The notes under the pieces: generated by a model
The model's input: only the letters and a program-made list of their open reading frames with translations
What the model was told of the DNA's origin: nothing
Databases searched by the model: none
Shown here: positions 3,985-29,475 of the stretch, piece by piece
How positions within the stretch are numbered: the stretch's first letter is position 1
How the letters are laid out: each line of letters begins with the position of its first letter
Translations under genes and position numbers: made by a program
Assembly (NCBI GenBank): GCA_937928425.1
Contig: CALFVL010000065.1
Location: 1-34,084, forward strand
Origin: an uncultured Verrucomicrobiales bacterium
GTDB taxonomy: Bacteria > Verrucomicrobiota > Verrucomicrobiia > Verrucomicrobiales > Akkermansiaceae
DNA: 34,084 bases
Direction: 5' to 3'

Positions 3985-5148
3985 TTAGCGCCCGAAGTGG
4001 AAGCGGAACCCCTCGATCAAGCGGCGTATTAATTCCTGCTCACGCTGTGCTTGCTGGATTTCCTGCACCTCTCTCTGAGCTTCCCTCTGGCGAAGACCAC
4101 GGCCGGGACCTATTCTTCTAAACGCGGGATCATAAGGGCTGGCCTCGGTTTTAATAAGCTGGCTGATGTCTTCTCCCGGTAAAATCAGGGTACTGATCCG
4201 CCCAGCACGCGCGATCACCATGCCCACCATTCTCCCTTCCAGATCTACGACTGGGAGCCCTGCATCGAAGCTCTCGAGCTCCATATCAGACTGGATGACT
4301 CCATCAAACTCTCCCCTCACACGACTCTGCGAACCACTCATCCGCTCCATCCGCTGTATCCGATTCGAGCGCTCTATGTCTCTCTTTTCAATGATGCGCC
4401 CTTTCAGAGTCGGCGTGACTTGAAAGTTCTGATTGGCGCGCTGGAGGCTGATCTTTGGCCTCTCTCCCTCCCTCATCCGGCGTAAGCGCGTAGAAAGTTC
4501 ATAGAAGCCCTTCACCTCTTCGCCATCAACCATCGTAATGATATCACCCGCACGGATGCCCACCTCTGCGGCTGCTGATCTCGGCTGGACTCTAGCCACT
4601 TTCACCCCCATGCCCAGTTCACTAGGGTCAATCTCGATTCCCAGAAAGCCCTGATCCCCTTCTTTCAAACTCCGCTCCTTCACACTGAGAACTCCGATCG
4701 CCTGCGCGTCTCCATCAGGGCGGATCGCCATGAGGAAGGCGCCATCATCCAAGCTTGCAGCATTAGCCCACTGAGCAGGAGCAGCAGCTAAACCGGACAC
4801 CTCGAGAATCGCTAAATCGGCATCGGCATATAGCCCTACGACTCTGGCAGGAAGCGCTCTGGATTCCTGATTAAGCACATACAGATCTTTGAGATGCAGT
4901 ACCTCACTGGCTTTCGTGAGGAGACGTTCCTCCCCCATCGAAATTCCGTAGACTAAATGGGTCTGTCCCGAAAAAACCGAAAACACGAGGTCCTGAGCTT
5001 GGAATTCCGCCGCCCGTATCGCATTAAAGACATCGAGTGCTTGGGCTCTAGTGCGGGCCCTATCCTCCAGAGGGATTCCATTCCCGCGCTCCTGTGCACC
5101 TAGAGAGACCAGACTAAGAATGGTAAAAAAAAGGAATCGTTTCATCAC
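3985..5148 (-). CDS. Secreted HtrA-like pseudoprotease with a nested PDZ domain
   Basis: 387 residues from GTG at 5148 (an ATG follows at 5145), with a hydrophobic signal sequence (4-18). The order is unusual. A trypsin-like first half (about 50-160) keeps the Asp of the ADADLAIL motif (D111) but has TKASEV where the catalytic TNNHVV would be, so His becomes Ser81. A PDZ domain (about 165-250, GFLGIEI to ISLQR) follows. The end of the protease barrel resumes at IQSDMELESFDAGLPVVD (285-302), where GNSGGP reads DAGLP, so Ser becomes Ala296. Two of three catalytic residues are therefore lost and PDZ sits inside the second barrel. The tail (350-387) is charged and Gln/Glu-rich. It starts 3 bases after the active htrA-like gene. 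A scaffold or regulatory role is an inference. Confidence 0.8.
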   Translation of the reverse strand: MMKRFLFFTILSLVSLGAQERGNGIPLEDRARTRAQALDVFNAIRAAEFQAQDLVFSVFSGQTHLVYGISMGEERLLTKASEVLHLKDLYVLNQESRALPARVVGLYADADLAILEVSGLAAAPAQWANAASLDDGAFLMAIRPDGDAQAIGVLSVKERSLKEGDQGFLGIEIDPSELGMGVKVARVQPRSAAAEVGIRAGDIITMVDGEEVKGFYELSTRLRRMREGERPKISLQRANQNFQVTPTLKGRIIEKRDIERSNRIQRMERMSGSQSRVRGEFDGVIQSDMELESFDAGLPVVDLEGRMVGMVIARAGRISTLILPGEDISQLIKTEASPYDPAFRRIGPGRGLRQREAQREVQEIQQAQREQELIRRLIEGFRFHFGR

Positions 5149-5151
5149 GTC

Positions 5152-6135
5152 TTAGCGTCGTCGTTTACGGTTAATTTCACTCAGAGGAACGAGCTTCACT
5201 TTTATCGTCATCTCTTTCTGACCTCTCCACGAAGTGACGCTAATCTCATCTCCTATGCTAAGGTCAGCGAAAATCTCTGCTAAGCCATCTAGGCTGCGAA
5301 TGTCTTGGCCTGCGATCGAGGTCACTAGATCTCCGGGACGTAGACCAGCGGCAAAAGCCGGCCCCTGTGCTGGCACTGATTCTACCAACAATCCCGCCGG
5401 GGTTTCTCTAAAATTAATTCCAATGACAGGGCGGTGAGGGTCCCTGTGACGATCTCCGAGAACGCCCCAAGATTTCCCTGCCAACATTTTTTCCCATGAA
5501 GACTGGAAACCCGAAAGCCCTGCATGGTTATTAATTTCACGGTCTGGTCCGATATTAGAGTGAATTCCCACGACTCGCCCTTTCAGGTCGAAGAGCGGGC
5601 CTCCACTATCACCGCCAATTAAGGTGCAGTCTGTTGTGATGAAATCGAGGTCCCGCTTTGTCATCACTCGCCCGAAGCGGACTGGCGGACGCCGAGTGGG
5701 ATCATAGCCCTTAGGGTGTCCCATCGCGACAACGAAGTCTCCGACCTCTAGTGAACGTGAATCACTCACTTCAGCAAAAGGCCACGGCCCTTCCCCTAGC
5801 AGCCTGGCCATCGCCGCATCTCGAGTATAATTCGCGCCTAATACGCGTGCCCTTTCCTGCCTCCCATCAGGAAAGATCACGGTCATGAACTCATTCCCTT
5901 CTATCACGTGGGCCGCAGTTAAAATGAGGCCGTCTCGGGAGACAATCACGCCGCTCCCAGCTCCACCAGATTTAGGTGATATGAGAGATACCGTCACCTT
6001 AGTGTTCTCACGCACGACTTGCTGCACCTGCTCTTCAAGCTTCTTAAGATCATCAATACTCTCGATCTTAGGAAGCGCCTGAAGAAGCGGCATCCCTAAT
6101 GTGAAGAAAAAAAACGCAACGAATTTATCTCTCAT
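5152..6135 (-). CDS. HtrA/DegP-type serine protease with one PDZ domain
   Basis: Secreted or periplasmic serine protease, 327 residues. After a signal sequence (1-20) and a short helical linker comes a trypsin domain with an intact triad: His76 in LTAAHV, Asp106 in TRDAAMARL and Ser177 in GGDSGGPLF. A single PDZ domain occupies about residues 235-315 (GINFRE... GLRPGDLVTSIAGQDI), and the protein ends in a basic RKRRR tail. The domain order is the normal one, unlike the following gene, with which it forms a probable two-gene operon. Proteins of this family degrade misfolded envelope proteins or act as regulated sheddases. The actual substrate is unknown. The ATG at 6135 lacks a Shine-Dalgarno sequence. 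Confidence 0.9.
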   Translation of the reverse strand: MRDKFVAFFFFTLGMPLLQALPKIESIDDLKKLEEQVQQVVRENTKVTVSLISPKSGGAGSGVIVSRDGLILTAAHVIEGNEFMTVIFPDGRQERARVLGANYTRDAAMARLLGEGPWPFAEVSDSRSLEVGDFVVAMGHPKGYDPTRRPPVRFGRVMTKRDLDFITTDCTLIGGDSGGPLFDLKGRVVGIHSNIGPDREINNHAGLSGFQSSWEKMLAGKSWGVLGDRHRDPHRPVIGINFRETPAGLLVESVPAQGPAFAAGLRPGDLVTSIAGQDIRSLDGLAEIFADLSIGDEISVTSWRGQKEMTIKVKLVPLSEINRKRRR

Positions 6136-19865: not shown

Positions 19866-21497
19866 CTATCGTACTTTATGGATGAGCGCCTCGGCGCAGC
19901 GGCGGCCATCTAATGCTGCTGAGACAATGCCACCCGCATAGCCCGCACCTTCCCCACAAGGGTAAAGTCCCTCTACCTCGGGATGCTGTAAATCGTCACC
20001 TCTTGGAATCCGTAAGGGCGAGCTGGTCCGCGTCTCAAAGCCGATTAAAAGAGCATCTGGCCCCGTATAACCTCGGATCATTTTTCCGAATTTACGTAAA
20101 CCACCAGCCAGACGGTCACTAATCTCTCGCGGTAAGATCTCATCCAGCCTTACCGAGTTTAAGCCCGGAAAGTAGCTCGTCTTTGGCAATTTACGCGAAA
20201 CTTTTCCGGCCAAAAAATCACCCACTTTTTGCCCCGGTGCCACCTGCCCACCACCACCAGCTTTCTTCGCCAATCGCTCCACATGCTTCTGATAGCGGAT
20301 CCCGCAGAGCACATCATCTCCTCCGAATCCCCGCACATCATCCGGCTCCACTCCCACCACCATCCCACTATTGGCAAAGGGTGAGTCGCGTCGTGAGAGA
20401 CTCATCCCATTCACCACCACCTCATCATTCATAGTAGCAGCAGGCACCACAAAACCTCCCGGACACATGCAAAAAGAATGCACACTGCGCCCCTTCACCT
20501 GCGTAGCGAGACGGTAGCGAGACGCTGGTAAATTACGCCCACGTTCCTCTCCTTCACCTAAGTGATACTGCACTCGGTCGATGAGTGGCTGAGGGTGCTC
20601 TATCCGCACCCCCACGGCAAAGGGTTTAGCCTCTAAGAGCACATTCTGCTTATGCAGTAACTCGTAAATATCTCGGGCGGAGTGCCCTGTTGCTAAGATC
20701 ACGCCCTTCCCTCGGAACTCCCGCCCATCCGCAGTTCTCACCCCCAGCATCTTCCCTCCCGCCATGAGGAATTCATTGACCTTCGCCCCAAAGTGCACCT
20801 CTCCTCCGGACTCCCGTAGGGACTCGCGCATCGCCATCACCACTTTCGGGAGCAGGTTAGATCCAATATGCGGGTGGGCCTCTACTAGAATTTTTCGGGG
20901 AGCACCGTGGGCCACCAGCGTACGGTAAATTTCCGCCACTGGTCCTCGCTTCGTCGCCCGAGTGTAGAGCTTCCCATCAGAGAAAGTTCCGGCACCACCT
21001 TCCCCAAAGCAGTAGTTCGACTCCTCGATCACACGACCTTCTTTTAAAATCGGCCCTAGATCGAAGCGCCTCGCCGAGGCATCCTTCCCCCGTTCTAGTA
21101 ACACTGGTTTGTAACCGAGTTCTAGACAACGCAGTGCCGCAAACATCCCCGCCGGACCACAGCCTACGATTACGATCTCTTCCGCGGCCATCCCGCTCTT
21201 CTTCAGAATTCCCCCCTCCCATCTCAGCTCCGCCTCTTCTGGCAATTTCTCATCCACCCCTACCTCGAACCTTAAGCGGAACCTCACGGGCCGTTTCCGT
21301 GCGTCGAGCGAGCGCTTTAGAAGGCGAAAGCCTGTCACCCGTTCTGCTTTCACCCGTAATTTTTTAGTGATTCGTAAAGCCCATCCCCGCTCATCAGCAG
21401 CCTCACTAGGGCTCAACACCAACTCAACTGTTTCCAAAGCCATCTCGTGAAACGCAATACGCCCTTCCTCCTCATCAACCAAGCTCAATGATTTCAT
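19866..21497 (-). CDS. FAD-dependent dehydrogenase of the COG2509 type
   Basis: 543 residues. An N-terminal domain of about 100 residues (LRITKKLRVKAERVTGFRLL, KRSLDARKRP) is typical of this group and precedes the FAD-binding Rossmann motif IVIVGCGPAGMFAALRCLE (108-126). Other landmarks are the GEGGAGTFSDGKLYTR motif, an ATGHSARDIYELL stretch and the C-terminal FAD loop GLYPCGEGAGYAGGIVSAALDG. Substrate and partner are unknown for these proteins. The gene is first in a two-gene unit with the cupin. Its start lies 36 bases from the LexA-like box shared with divergent imuA, so SOS control is possible but unproven. Confidence 0.88.
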   Translation of the reverse strand: MKSLSLVDEEEGRIAFHEMALETVELVLSPSEAADERGWALRITKKLRVKAERVTGFRLLKRSLDARKRPVRFRLRFEVGVDEKLPEEAELRWEGGILKKSGMAAEEIVIVGCGPAGMFAALRCLELGYKPVLLERGKDASARRFDLGPILKEGRVIEESNYCFGEGGAGTFSDGKLYTRATKRGPVAEIYRTLVAHGAPRKILVEAHPHIGSNLLPKVVMAMRESLRESGGEVHFGAKVNEFLMAGGKMLGVRTADGREFRGKGVILATGHSARDIYELLHKQNVLLEAKPFAVGVRIEHPQPLIDRVQYHLGEGEERGRNLPASRYRLATQVKGRSVHSFCMCPGGFVVPAATMNDEVVVNGMSLSRRDSPFANSGMVVGVEPDDVRGFGGDDVLCGIRYQKHVERLAKKAGGGGQVAPGQKVGDFLAGKVSRKLPKTSYFPGLNSVRLDEILPREISDRLAGGLRKFGKMIRGYTGPDALLIGFETRTSSPLRIPRGDDLQHPEVEGLYPCGEGAGYAGGIVSAALDGRRCAEALIHKVR

Positions 21498-21512
21498 TCC
21501 CTAATTGTTCGC

Positions 21513-21541
21513 TTGCTCACACCTTAAATAAGTGTTCTAAT
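21513..21541 (+). promoter_or_regulatory. Probable imuA-imuB promoter
   Basis: TTGCTC (21513-21518) and TCTAAT (21536-21541) are spaced by 17 bases. The -10 differs from TATAAT at one position. The LexA-like box covers the -10, as expected for a repressed SOS promoter. Transcription would start near 21548. Confidence 0.5.
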
Positions 21542-21546
21542 GAACA
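21533..21546. promoter_or_regulatory. LexA (SOS) box in front of imuA-imuB
   Basis: The sequence TGTTCTAATGAACA is a perfect TGTTC-N4-GAACA palindrome, the LexA-binding motif reported for Verrucomicrobia. It sits between the divergent flavoprotein gene and imuA, over a plausible -10 element, in front of genes that are SOS-regulated in other phyla. I found no second perfect copy in the window. Confidence 0.8.
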
Positions 21547-21550
21547 GAAC

Positions 21551-22156
21551 TTGAGCATTCTTCAAATTCAACAATTGCGCCGTGAACTTCGCGAGAAATT
21601 TCCTGCTGCTCATCGTGCTCCTCATCCGCCAGCCTCTCTTCCACCTGCGCCACTCACCTTCGCCCCCGGCCACCTGAGCGAGATGATCTCCCCTCATCAA
21701 TCATCCGGTGCCTCTCTCGTCATATCTAAACTCCTTGATAAAAAACGTGAGACTCCCTTAGTCCTCATCGATGGCCGTGACAGCTTCGACCCCGCCTCTT
21801 ATGGGAATGAAAAATGCCATAATCTGATCTGGATTCGCTGCTCAAAGTCCGAACAAGCTATCCAAGCTGCGGACCTCCTTCTCCGAGATGGGAATCTTCC
21901 CTTCATCATCCTAGATCTTCACCTCGTCGCCGAGCGTGAACTTCGCCGCATCCCGCACGCGCTCTGGCAGCGACTTAAAGTTCATGCCCGTCATTCGGGT
22001 AGCACCATGCTCGCGATCACTCCACATGCCCTCGTCCCCACTCCTCATCGCCGACTCACTTTAAGCGGTCACTTCTCTCTCGCTCAGCTAGAACTCGAAG
22101 AACCCTCCCTACAACTCCATCACAGCCTAGAACACCAGCACACTCATAAAGCATGA
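21551..22156 (+). CDS. imuA: ImuA-like protein, RecA-related accessory factor of translesion synthesis
   Basis: About 201 residues from a TTG at 21551 (21575 TTG is an alternative). A frame open from 21488 would place the LexA box inside the coding region, so I prefer the later start. The N-terminus has the ImuA-type LRRELREKFPAAHR. The core resembles a degraded RecA fold: a VLIDG strand, LIWIRCSKSEQAIQAADLLLRDG and a Walker-B-like FIILDL, but no Walker A (GxxxxGKT). Without a Walker A it is unlikely to be an ATPase of the RecA kind. It overlaps imuB by 4 bases (ATGA), the classic imuA-imuB arrangement. ImuA links ImuB and the DnaE2 polymerase in mutagenic repair. Confidence 0.8.
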   Translation: MSILQIQQLRRELREKFPAAHRAPHPPASLPPAPLTFAPGHLSEMISPHQSSGASLVISKLLDKKRETPLVLIDGRDSFDPASYGNEKCHNLIWIRCSKSEQAIQAADLLLRDGNLPFIILDLHLVAERELRRIPHALWQRLKVHARHSGSTMLAITPHALVPTPHRRLTLSGHFSLAQLELEEPSLQLHHSLEHQHTHKA

Positions 22157-23616
22157 GCTACGCCGCCCTCCACTTCCATGACCTCCCGCTACACTGTCTC
22201 CTCTCTCGCCGTGGCACCCCCTCCACCCAGCCCGCCGCCCTCCTCGCTCAACGAGGATCCGAAAAAGTTCAGATCATCGCAGTAAATCAGGCTGCTCGCC
22301 AGCAGCACATTCACCCCGGCCTTCATCCCACCCGCGCCATCGCTCGTCACCTTGACCTCCTCATCCTCGAGCGTGACCTTGCCGCCGAGAAATCAGCTCA
22401 GTCCGAGGCACTGGCTTTTGTCGACTCCCTCGTTCCTGACTTCGAGCTAACCACCCCAGAGACCTTCCTTCTCGACCTCTCCACACTCCTCATGGCCTCA
22501 GAAGAAGACTGGTCTACTCACACTCTTGCCGCTGCTAGTTATCTTGATCTACCTCTCCAAATCGGGCTCGGTCCCACTCCCGACCTTGCCCACCTCGCCT
22601 CCCTCACTAAAGAAAACTCCCCCCTTACCCTAAAACTCGAAGACCTTGCCCGGGCTCGTTTGGAAAACTTCCCCCTTTCCCAACTTAGCACCTTGCAGCT
22701 CTGGGGCCTGCAATGCCTCGCTGACCTTAGCCGGCTCCCTCGCCAAGGACTCGCCGAGCGCCTCGGGCCAGACTTAGCCCATCTGCATGACGTCCTCCTC
22801 GCTAAAAAACACCGCCTTCTCACCCTTCACCGCCCTAAAAAACACTACCAGATCCAGCACAGCTTCACTCCTCCGATCGAGACCCACGCGCCTCTTCTCT
22901 TTATCGCAAAACGCCTCCTGCAAACCCTCTGCAACCGCCTCGCACAGCAGCAGCGTGCAGCCGCAGAATTACACCTTACTCTCGCCTTTAATAATGGAGC
23001 CGCACACAGCCGTAAGCTCACCCTCTCCGAGCCCACCCTCTCACCAGACATTCTTCTACGTAGCCTCCACACCCACCTCGATACCCTCCAAGCTCCCGCT
23101 CCCACTGAGGAATTCCACCTCCAACTCATCCCCGCTCTCCCTCACCATGCTCAGCACCAACTCTTTTCCCGCAGTCTCAAAGACCCGAATCAATTCACCG
23201 AAACCATCCGCCGTCTCTCCGCCTTCGTCGGGCCTCAGAACCTTGGCATCCCTCACCAGCGTGACACCCACTGCCCAGACTCCTTCCAGCTCTCTCCCAT
23301 CCTCCCAGATTTCAAAACACCCACCGTCCCAGAGCTGGACCCCGTAAGCAATCTGCCCCTTAAACGTCAGCGCCCGCCCATCTCGGTAAGCGTTGCATCA
23401 GAAAAGCGAGGGGCATACCTACACCCCCTCGCTCTCCTGAGTGGCCCTCACCAAGGCCCTATCCATAAAACTCGCGGTCCTTTCCCTCTTTCAGGATCTT
23501 GGTGGCAAGACAGCTGGCAGCAAGCACAGTGGGACATCGAACTGCCAGACTCCCTCCTCCTGCAACTCACTTACACTCCACCAAAAAATTGGCAGCTCAC
23601 TGGGATTTATGCCTAA
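22153..23616 (+). CDS. imuB: ImuB, catalytically degenerate Y-family polymerase-like protein
   Basis: 487 residues, the clamp-binding adaptor of damage-induced mutagenesis. The overall Y-family order is visible, but the acidic active-site residues are missing: the first motif reads LHFHDLPLHCLL in place of DCDAFFA, and the SxDE motif region reads TTPETFLLDLSTL. That is normal for ImuB. A clamp-binding-like AQHQLFSRS lies near residue 337, where ImuB proteins usually have a QxxLF motif, followed by the family's GIPHQRDTHCPDSF stretch. The DnaE2 (ImuC) polymerase that normally completes the cassette is not next to it, since rpoD follows. The sequence is rich in His, Leu and Pro. Confidence 0.85.
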   Translation: MSYAALHFHDLPLHCLLSRRGTPSTQPAALLAQRGSEKVQIIAVNQAARQQHIHPGLHPTRAIARHLDLLILERDLAAEKSAQSEALAFVDSLVPDFELTTPETFLLDLSTLLMASEEDWSTHTLAAASYLDLPLQIGLGPTPDLAHLASLTKENSPLTLKLEDLARARLENFPLSQLSTLQLWGLQCLADLSRLPRQGLAERLGPDLAHLHDVLLAKKHRLLTLHRPKKHYQIQHSFTPPIETHAPLLFIAKRLLQTLCNRLAQQQRAAAELHLTLAFNNGAAHSRKLTLSEPTLSPDILLRSLHTHLDTLQAPAPTEEFHLQLIPALPHHAQHQLFSRSLKDPNQFTETIRRLSAFVGPQNLGIPHQRDTHCPDSFQLSPILPDFKTPTVPELDPVSNLPLKRQRPPISVSVASEKRGAYLHPLALLSGPHQGPIHKTRGPFPLSGSWWQDSWQQAQWDIELPDSLLLQLTYTPPKNWQLTGIYA

Positions 23617-28119: not shown

Positions 28120-29475
28120 TTACTCTTCAGCAAAGCGTGCGGGATTGACCTCCTTCCAGAGCTTCCAACAGGCCAAGAAACCGGGGGCGAAATCCTCAGG
28201 CACCCCAGTCACCCACTGCTCAATCTGGGCCATCGTAAACCACTCACCATACTCCACCTCTACGCAGGGAAAGCGGATCTTCCCCTGCGCTAAGGTTGCG
28301 TAAAGTTTCACATGCTCCCAGCCCGTATTGGAGTGGGCGCCCAGTTTCCCCACCTCTTTTAAATCATGCTGGACCAGCCCTAATTCCTCCTCCAGCTCCC
28401 GCTGAGCGCAGAGCTCATACTCCTCTCCGGCATCGACATGCCCTGCCGCGCTAGAGTCCCACAATCCGGGGCACTTGTCTTTCAAGCGGGACCGCTTTTG
28501 TAAAAAAATCTCCCCTTTTTGGTTCAGGACGAAGAGATGAACCGCTCGATGTTTTAGCCCCTCACGGTGGATCACTTCCCGCTTCTCACTTCCCAGCACG
28601 ACATCATTCTCATCCACCACGGTGAGTAACTCATCAGCACCCTGACCTTCCTCCTTCTCAAAGAGTGGATCAGCTTCCCGGGTCAAAGCCACCCAATCCT
28701 CCAAACTCAGTTCCTCTGCCCGTGCCGTCGCCAAAAAGCCCAACTTCTGACTCACTGTCTCCCAGTCGATTTCAGCAGGAAGGTTCTTCCGTAACTGCTT
28801 ACGCCGCTGCGCGAATCCTCGGCGGACCAGCTCGTCAAACAAGCGCCGATCATGCACCGGTAATTCTGCCTGCCGAGGCTCCAAGGTCATCACGGTAGAG
28901 TCGATTAAAGGGCGCGGGATAAAGCAGCTCGGCGGTACCACCTTCACCGGTTCTCCCTGCCATTCACACTGCATTCTAAGGGTCAATACCCCATAATCTT
29001 TACAACGCGGACCTGCTAAGATCCGATCGATCATTTCCTTCTGCAACATCAAGACCGCACGAATAAAGGGTGATGGCCCTTTCAGGAAATTTCGTAAAAT
29101 GGCCCCTCCTGCTGAGTAGGGTAAATTGCCTAATAACTTCACCTGTCTGTGGGCAAAGAAAGGGCGCACATCCAGACGCACTGCATCATGATTCAGCACC
29201 GTCACTTCAGAACGATCTGCGAAGCGTCTCTGAAGATACTCGGCGAGCCTGCGATCATACTCCACGAGAATGATTTTAGACACCCGCCCGATGAGATGCT
29301 CAGTCAGTGCTCCTGTCCCCGGCCCCACCTCCACCACGGTATCTGCAGGATCTAAATGCAACTGCTCCACGATCCACCGCGCAGTATTTTCATCGACGAG
29401 GAAGTTTTGCCCTAGCCGCTTAGAGGGCACCACATCGACTTCAGCTAAAATTTCCGTTAATTCAGTGGCCGTCAC
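28120..29475 (-). CDS. rsmA: RsmA (KsgA) rRNA dimethyltransferase fused to a Nudix hydrolase
   Basis: A single 451-residue frame. Residues 1-270 are a complete RsmA/KsgA: SKRLGQNFLVDE (18-29), the SAM motif VEVGPGTGALTEHL (48-61), NLPY (117-120) and the C-terminal helical FAQRRKQLRKNL. This enzyme dimethylates two adenines near the 3' end of 16S rRNA. Residues 280-451 are a Nudix domain of the YfcD/IPP-isomerase-like group (HRAVHLFVLNQKGEIFLQKRS), with an intact Nudix box from G345 to L367 (GX5EX7REUXEEXGU). Both halves look functional and no stop or frameshift separates them. KsgA alone is normally about 270 residues. The start is GTG at 29475 with GAAAGGA 5 bases ahead, one of the few good ribosome-binding sites here. 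Confidence 0.93.
   Translation of the reverse strand: MTATELTEILAEVDVVPSKRLGQNFLVDENTARWIVEQLHLDPADTVVEVGPGTGALTEHLIGRVSKIILVEYDRRLAEYLQRRFADRSEVTVLNHDAVRLDVRPFFAHRQVKLLGNLPYSAGGAILRNFLKGPSPFIRAVLMLQKEMIDRILAGPRCKDYGVLTLRMQCEWQGEPVKVVPPSCFIPRPLIDSTVMTLEPRQAELPVHDRRLFDELVRRGFAQRRKQLRKNLPAEIDWETVSQKLGFLATARAEELSLEDWVALTREADPLFEKEEGQGADELLTVVDENDVVLGSEKREVIHREGLKHRAVHLFVLNQKGEIFLQKRSRLKDKCPGLWDSSAAGHVDAGEEYELCAQRELEEELGLVQHDLKEVGKLGAHSNTGWEHVKLYATLAQGKIRFPCVEVEYGEWFTMAQIEQWVTGVPEDFAPGFLACWKLWKEVNPARFAEE

Follow-up and report, generated by a model that had tools for sequence, protein, structure and literature searches.

The window, the whole 34,084-nucleotide stretch of DNA analysed here, derives from contig CALFVL010000065.1 of an uncultured Verrucomicrobiales bacterium of the family Akkermansiaceae and encodes two consecutive HtrA-related proteins near its beginning (Table 1). 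The downstream gene reads on the minus strand from 5148 to 3985, initiates with a GTG codon that is followed directly by an ATG, and codes for a protein of 387 amino acids, while on the plus strand over the same positions the frame is interrupted by stops; the earlier note on this DNA had given the position without a strand. Two Pfam domains are recognised in the product, PDZ_2 (residues 167-244, E 8.4e-12) and Trypsin_2 (E 1.6e-7), the latter in two stretches of which the best covers residues 87-151. The upstream gene, coding for a canonical HtrA-type protease (hereafter the partner), lies on the same strand and in the same frame, and between it and the gene for the nested protein there is nothing but its stop codon and a single additional codon.

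Table 1. Features of the partner and nested-PDZ genes, with positions in the window
Feature	Position	Strand	Basis
Nested-PDZ gene (predicted pseudoprotease)	3985..5148	-	ORF, Pfam, AlphaFold2 model
Residues 1-20, hydrophobic signal-peptide-like N-terminus	5089..5148	-	Inferred from sequence; helix 2-20 in model
Residues 50-165, first barrel and start of second HtrA barrel	4654..5001	-	Model, structure and profile alignments
Residues 79-82, K-A-S-E in place of catalytic A-A-H-V	4903..4914	-	Alignment of relatives
D111, equivalent of the catalytic Asp	4816..4818	-	Alignment of relatives
Residues 166-250, PDZ inserted at the site of HtrA sensor loop L3	4399..4653	-	Pfam, model, profile
Residues 251-278, low-confidence linker with helix returning to the barrel	4315..4398	-	Model
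Residues 279-340, end of second barrel, SFDAGLP for GDSGGP	4129..4314	-	Model, structure and profile alignments
A296 at the nucleophilic Ser position (F294 at the oxyanion-hole Gly193 position)	4261..4263	-	Profile alignment
Residues 351-386, C-terminal helix, amphipathic by inspection	3991..4098	-	Model
Partner gene, canonical HtrA-type protease, 327 aa	5152..6135	-	ORF, Pfam, alignment
Partner S177, in a triad with H76 (5908..5910) and D106 (5818..5820)	5605..5607	-	Alignment
Partner residues 236-315, C-terminal PDZ in the usual order	5191..5430	-	Pfam

An AlphaFold2 model of the nested protein (mean pLDDT 85.2, pTM 0.71, from a 28-row alignment) predicts one double barrel that closes around the PDZ domain and is completed by the C-terminal segment. 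In VIA-align comparisons with solved structures, model residues 32-340 superimpose on HtrA protease domains with Z scores of about 20-22 over 171-192 aligned residues (rmsd mostly 2.3-3.6 Å, with one listed row at 5.5), and the catalytic domain of HtrA1 without its PDZ (3tjn_B) is matched over 180 of its 197 residues by the stretch 33-336. This aligner reports the first and last aligned residues only; since the stretch ahead of the PDZ amounts to at most about 135 residues, the ranges imply that the segment following the PDZ must contribute to the barrel. When the PDZ columns are removed, the nested profile is aligned by hhalign to that of the partner HtrAs with a probability of 98.2 (E 3.9e-14), in a match that spans the first barrel through to the GDSGGP segment and pairs S81 (in LLTKASEV) with the His of TAAHV, D111 with the Asp and A296 (in SFDAGLP) with the Ser of GDSGGP. 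The earlier note had read the protein as a PDZ domain nested in a degenerate trypsin fold that keeps the HtrA barrel order, with His replaced by Ser81 and Ser by Ala296. This description is borne out by Pfam, hhalign, the DegQ profile match given below and the predicted structure; the residue numbers are correct, the Asp is kept as D111, and an unrelated C-terminal domain, which the note had held to be incompatible with its reading, is not seen in the structure prediction that it had proposed.

The site of the insertion can be placed by profile. In a search of PDB profiles, positions 67-161 of the nested protein match DegQ residues 66-165 and positions 279-312 match DegQ residues 171-204, and the 5-residue gap left between the two indicates that the PDZ insertion replaces DegQ residues 166-170, corresponding to Ser minus 21 to minus 17. 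In published work, the sensor loop L3 extends from Ser-25 to Ser-12 in HtrA3 and from Ser-25 to Ser-15 in Deg5 (PMC3640471). By this alignment, the nested PDZ occupies the sensor loop L3 position of the HtrA proteases. As outlined in PMC3575494, a PDZ of these proteases that has bound peptide would signal via L3 to the loops LD and L1.

The earlier note had recommended that the same order be searched for elsewhere, and had treated the protein as a single odd case. The unusual layout is real and recurs in 112 non-redundant genes, 94 of them in Verrucomicrobiota and 18 in Planctomycetota, so that the nested arrangement is not a matter of chance and the window protein is a member of a widespread family in these phyla rather than a single oddity. 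The genes were gathered from whole-genome and named-contig searches and from two fetches of 40 places hand-picked from the match lists by their nested match and not by their neighbour, giving 167 nested rows, or 112 after the removal of near-copies, each with one profile hit running from model position 100 or lower to 300 or higher at 60 bits or more. The named-contig scan made use of one peptide pattern, and its titled hits belong to Verrucomicrobiota and Planctomycetota, with one record titled only 'Bacterium'. Samples of the two phyla gave counts of 37 out of 387 genomes for the phylum of the window and 33 out of 199 for that of the Gemmataceae genome, the latter, on the Planctomycetota side, also including some partial or PDZ-only matches; in both samples part of the first-look candidates was scored per genome, so that copies can be missed. 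On a quick tree built from a random part of the rows (45 of the 112 nested, 40 of the 105 partners and one DegP-like protein) and containing long branches, the nested barrels occupy one side of a single branch with a support of 99, with 45 nested rows on that side and 41 HtrA rows on the other. Evolutionary intermediates, that is, nested proteins with an intact triad, are absent among the 112, a set found with profiles that were built from K-x-S members and may under-sample such proteins. Of the genomes listed for one genus of the Akkermansiaceae, the family of the window genome, 13 yielded the nested gene and 10 did not, and the latter tend to be smaller.

The loss of the catalytic apparatus extends to the whole family. 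A catalytic His occurs in none of the 112 relatives, position 81 being occupied by Ser in 108, Thr in three and Ala in one, and the nucleophile position 296 is variable (Cys in 53, Ala in 17, Met in 15, Val in 14, Thr in six, Ile in four, Ser in two and Asn in one), with Cys in 16 of the 18 planctomycete members. The oxyanion-hole Gly193 (chymotrypsin numbering) is missing from all 112 nested proteins, in contrast to the 36 aligned partners, all of which retain both this glycine and an intact triad. Members with Cys or Ser at position 296 should consequently also be inactive. That the nested protein is a pseudoprotease, as the earlier note had suggested on the basis of the fold and of the His and Ser losses, is well supported by the alignments and the model, with the loss of Gly193 providing an additional argument. 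By comparison, K79 (110/112), Ser or Thr at position 81 (111/112) and D111 (111/112) are among the most conserved residues, and the K-x-[ST] motif and the Asp persist in 56 of the 57 members in which position 296 is occupied by a residue other than Cys or Ser. A single member, L149, has lost K79 along with D111, a case that fits a putative K79-D111 salt bridge replacing the catalytic pair. A subgroup of long fused proteins (L153-L156) carries K-N-T or K-N-A in place of K-x-S, with the Asp and the Cys kept. Within the PDZ domain, G170, located in what we take to be the carboxylate loop, is conserved in 110 of the 112 relatives, making a role as peptide sensor or scaffold plausible.

Association with an intact HtrA characterises the family as a whole. 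In all 35 named loci with upstream sequence (38 named loci less L057, L072 and L074, which begin inside the gene), an HtrA gene on the same strand lies directly upstream, with TA[AG]HV and GGDSGGP intact. When all 112 nested genes are considered, 105 are accompanied by an HtrA, which is directly upstream in 87 and fused in 18; adjacency required a same-strand HtrA hit above 40 bits that lies upstream and ends before the start of the nested domain plus 400 bases, and 77 of the 87 upstream HtrAs end within 200 bases of the nested domain. The partner triad is intact in 104 of the 105, the remaining hit stopping short of the His. Pairing is seen in 91 of the 94 verrucomicrobial and 14 of the 18 planctomycete genes, while for seven of the 112 no HtrA was found beside or in front of the nested gene within the flank examined (four planctomycete loci, one verrucomicrobial locus and two second copies following a fused gene). 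Fusion or fission requires at least ten changes on a quick tree. The 2.57-Mb genome of the window yielded four HtrA-type protease genes, three of which are paired or fused: the partner described here, an HtrA on contig 40 that precedes a second nested gene, and one on contig 77 that is fused to a third; the only unpaired gene is DegP-like and is located on contig 25. A larger conserved operon was also considered and rejected, as the commonest family in the flanks of the 35 named loci, a divergent upstream gene, is present in 17 of them, and the two-gene unit seems to stand alone, with flanks that are not conserved beyond the pair. In the window genome (L172, contig 77) and in L004, a 556-aa gene comes after the fused HtrA-pseudoprotease gene; the first half of its product resembles, by eye, another degenerate trypsin-like domain, and the second half is a nested pseudoprotease.

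The two members of a pair have duplicated and diverged as units. In permutations of the partners within 16 genomes holding 36 pairs, none of 5000 rounds (mean r 0.18, sd 0.07) came up to the correlation of tree distances seen for the true pairs (r 0.775), and swapping the partners lowered r in all 12 of the two-pair genomes. Confining the permutation to genomes with two or three pairs separates the effect of pairing from that of species relatedness and provides the controlled version of the all-pairs Mantel correlation (r 0.77, 105 pairs), which is inflated by such relatedness. This co-duplication may stem from the physical linkage of the operon rather than from protein contact.

Among known systems, the HtrA/Deg proteases (DegP, DegQ, DegS and HtrA1; MEROPS S1C) share with the nested family the double-barrel trypsin-like fold (Z about 20-22), the HtrA-type PDZ and a profile match to DegQ in several stretches. 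The nested family differs in lacking the His-Asp-Ser triad (S81, D111 and A296 in the window protein) and the oxyanion Gly193, in carrying its PDZ within loop L3 and not behind the protease domain, and in the added conserved K-x-[ST]. The nested protein thus falls outside the S1C proteases, having their fold but not the triad, Gly193 or the C-terminal PDZ. Closest in function, by analogy, would be MamO and MamE, an inactive HtrA-type protein accompanying an active HtrA, with which the nested family and its partners have the degenerate trypsin fold and the genetic association in common. According to the passages of PMC4794232 that concern these proteins, MamO is needed for MamE-dependent proteolysis, and its loss of the oxyanion-hole glycine 193, a position that is non-glycine in MamO and the nested family alike, is argued to be a barrier to catalysis. 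The same passages describe MamO as a metal-binding alphaproteobacterial magnetosome protein composed of a protease domain and a C-terminal TauE-like domain, and do not mention a nested PDZ (PMC4794232). No Pfam match to a TauE-like transporter domain, a feature of MamO-family membership, was obtained for the window protein, and the nested family, unlike MamO, is mostly located immediately downstream of, or fused to, the protease and spans two other phyla. Arabidopsis Deg5 and Deg8 are a pair of HtrA proteins that act synergistically, one of them without detectable activity, but according to PMC3640471 Deg5 has no PDZ at all and its catalytic His147 is misplaced and not lost. A description of the nested-PDZ architecture was not found in searches of an open-licence library, nor in passages of PMC6411480 and PMC2605481; PMC3575494 deals with an unrelated Vibrio protein. 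The nested family is set apart from MamO by its inserted PDZ, its K-x-[ST] motif and its occurrence in two phyla.

The reading that we favour, with a rough probability of 0.6, is that the nested protein is a secreted, HtrA-derived pseudoprotease serving as a dedicated partner subunit of the active HtrA encoded just upstream, with its PDZ sensing peptide at L3. The requirement for MamO in MamE-dependent proteolysis constitutes a precedent for such a subunit. The two proteins would be synthesised jointly, as products of one operon or as a single chain, before being exported; judging from the hydrophobic N-termini, export of the pair is probable. They may then assemble, most simply via their homologous protease domains in the manner of HtrA protomers, after which the nested PDZ would bind client or misfolded proteins by their C-terminal peptides and, from its position at L3, could switch or direct the active site of the partner. 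We infer secretion, co-transcription, physical assembly and peptide binding, and the effect on the partner may be either activation or restraint. In the natural fusions, examples of which are a 725-aa protein of the window genome and the 743-aa protein L037, the nested pseudoprotease and the HtrA share one chain, so that their proximity is unavoidable in those members. An artificial read-through chain of the two window genes, folded as one covalently linked protein of 716 residues from a 14-row alignment, reached a pTM of 0.73, which weakly suggests a defined packing of the two halves. The suggestion of the earlier note, a pseudoprotease built as a scaffold or peptide sensor, is retained in part: the nested pseudoprotease stands, while the intact HtrA upstream and the pairing or fusion throughout the family had been missed.

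The same pairing evidence, both linkage and co-duplication, would suit a substrate adaptor, in which the PDZ and a peptide-binding cleft capture clients and hand them to the partner, or the nested protein itself holds them in the manner of a chaperone, with the active site of the partner unchanged allosterically. The conserved glycine of the PDZ carboxylate loop is in agreement with such a role, and the 18 fusions among the 112 genes suit tethering as well as allostery. An adaptor leaves unexplained, however, why the PDZ is located exactly at the sensor loop and why the K-x-[ST]/Asp core is constrained above most other residues, and we consider this explanation unlikely. An inhibitory subunit, or decoy protomer, that holds the partner off until a peptide signal arrives would be consistent with the co-duplication and with the active protease always coming first in the order, and an HtrA trimer that includes a catalytically dead protomer could lose its cooperative active state; MamO, the sole functional HtrA-pseudoprotease precedent found, is nonetheless needed for the activity of its partner, making restraint improbable.

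Near-invariance of K79, S/T81 and D111, coupled with Cys at the nucleophile position in 53 of the 112 members and in nearly all planctomycete ones, might point to a new catalytic or ligand-binding centre built on K79-x-S81 and D111. Retention of the motif in all but one of the members without Cys or Ser at 296 indicates no dependence on that nucleophile, the oxyanion glycine is missing throughout, and the joint loss of K79 and D111 in L149 is as expected of a structural salt bridge, so that we regard a new centre as very improbable. Loss of the catalytic residues could also mark a decayed paralogue, a non-functional leftover of an HtrA duplication. The counts for conservation and linkage led us to reject this: the family is conserved in both phyla, its new residues hardly vary, its linkage persists, and its barrels lie on one side of the single well-supported branch; we attach scarcely any weight to it. 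The partner-subunit reading is preferred, and it may be extended to a two-part periplasmic protease class found throughout the Verrucomicrobiota and Planctomycetota, in which a near-obligate dead twin with a PDZ in L3 senses peptide in trans and gates the active HtrA allosterically, a tentative proposal to which we would give somewhat short of an even chance. HtrA proteases are models for PDZ peptide binding that is relayed through L3 to the active site, and here a PDZ has been placed directly in L3, catalysis has apparently been removed, and the product has been kept beside or fused to a working HtrA in two phyla. Should the two proteins assemble into a complex, sensor and enzyme would be split over two genes, and the PDZ-to-L3 relay could be tested in pieces.

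Aside from this pair, two further loci of the window deserve mention. Two overlapping genes at 21488..23616 on the plus strand, which we take to be of the ImuA/ImuB type, comprise a first gene without a Pfam match and a second, of 487 aa, with weak matches to Y-family polymerase domains (IMS, IMS_C). On the minus strand at 28120..29475, one frame of 451 aa combines an rRNA adenine dimethylase of the KsgA/RsmA type (PF00398, residues 19-267) with a C-terminal NUDIX domain (PF00293, residues 308-418).
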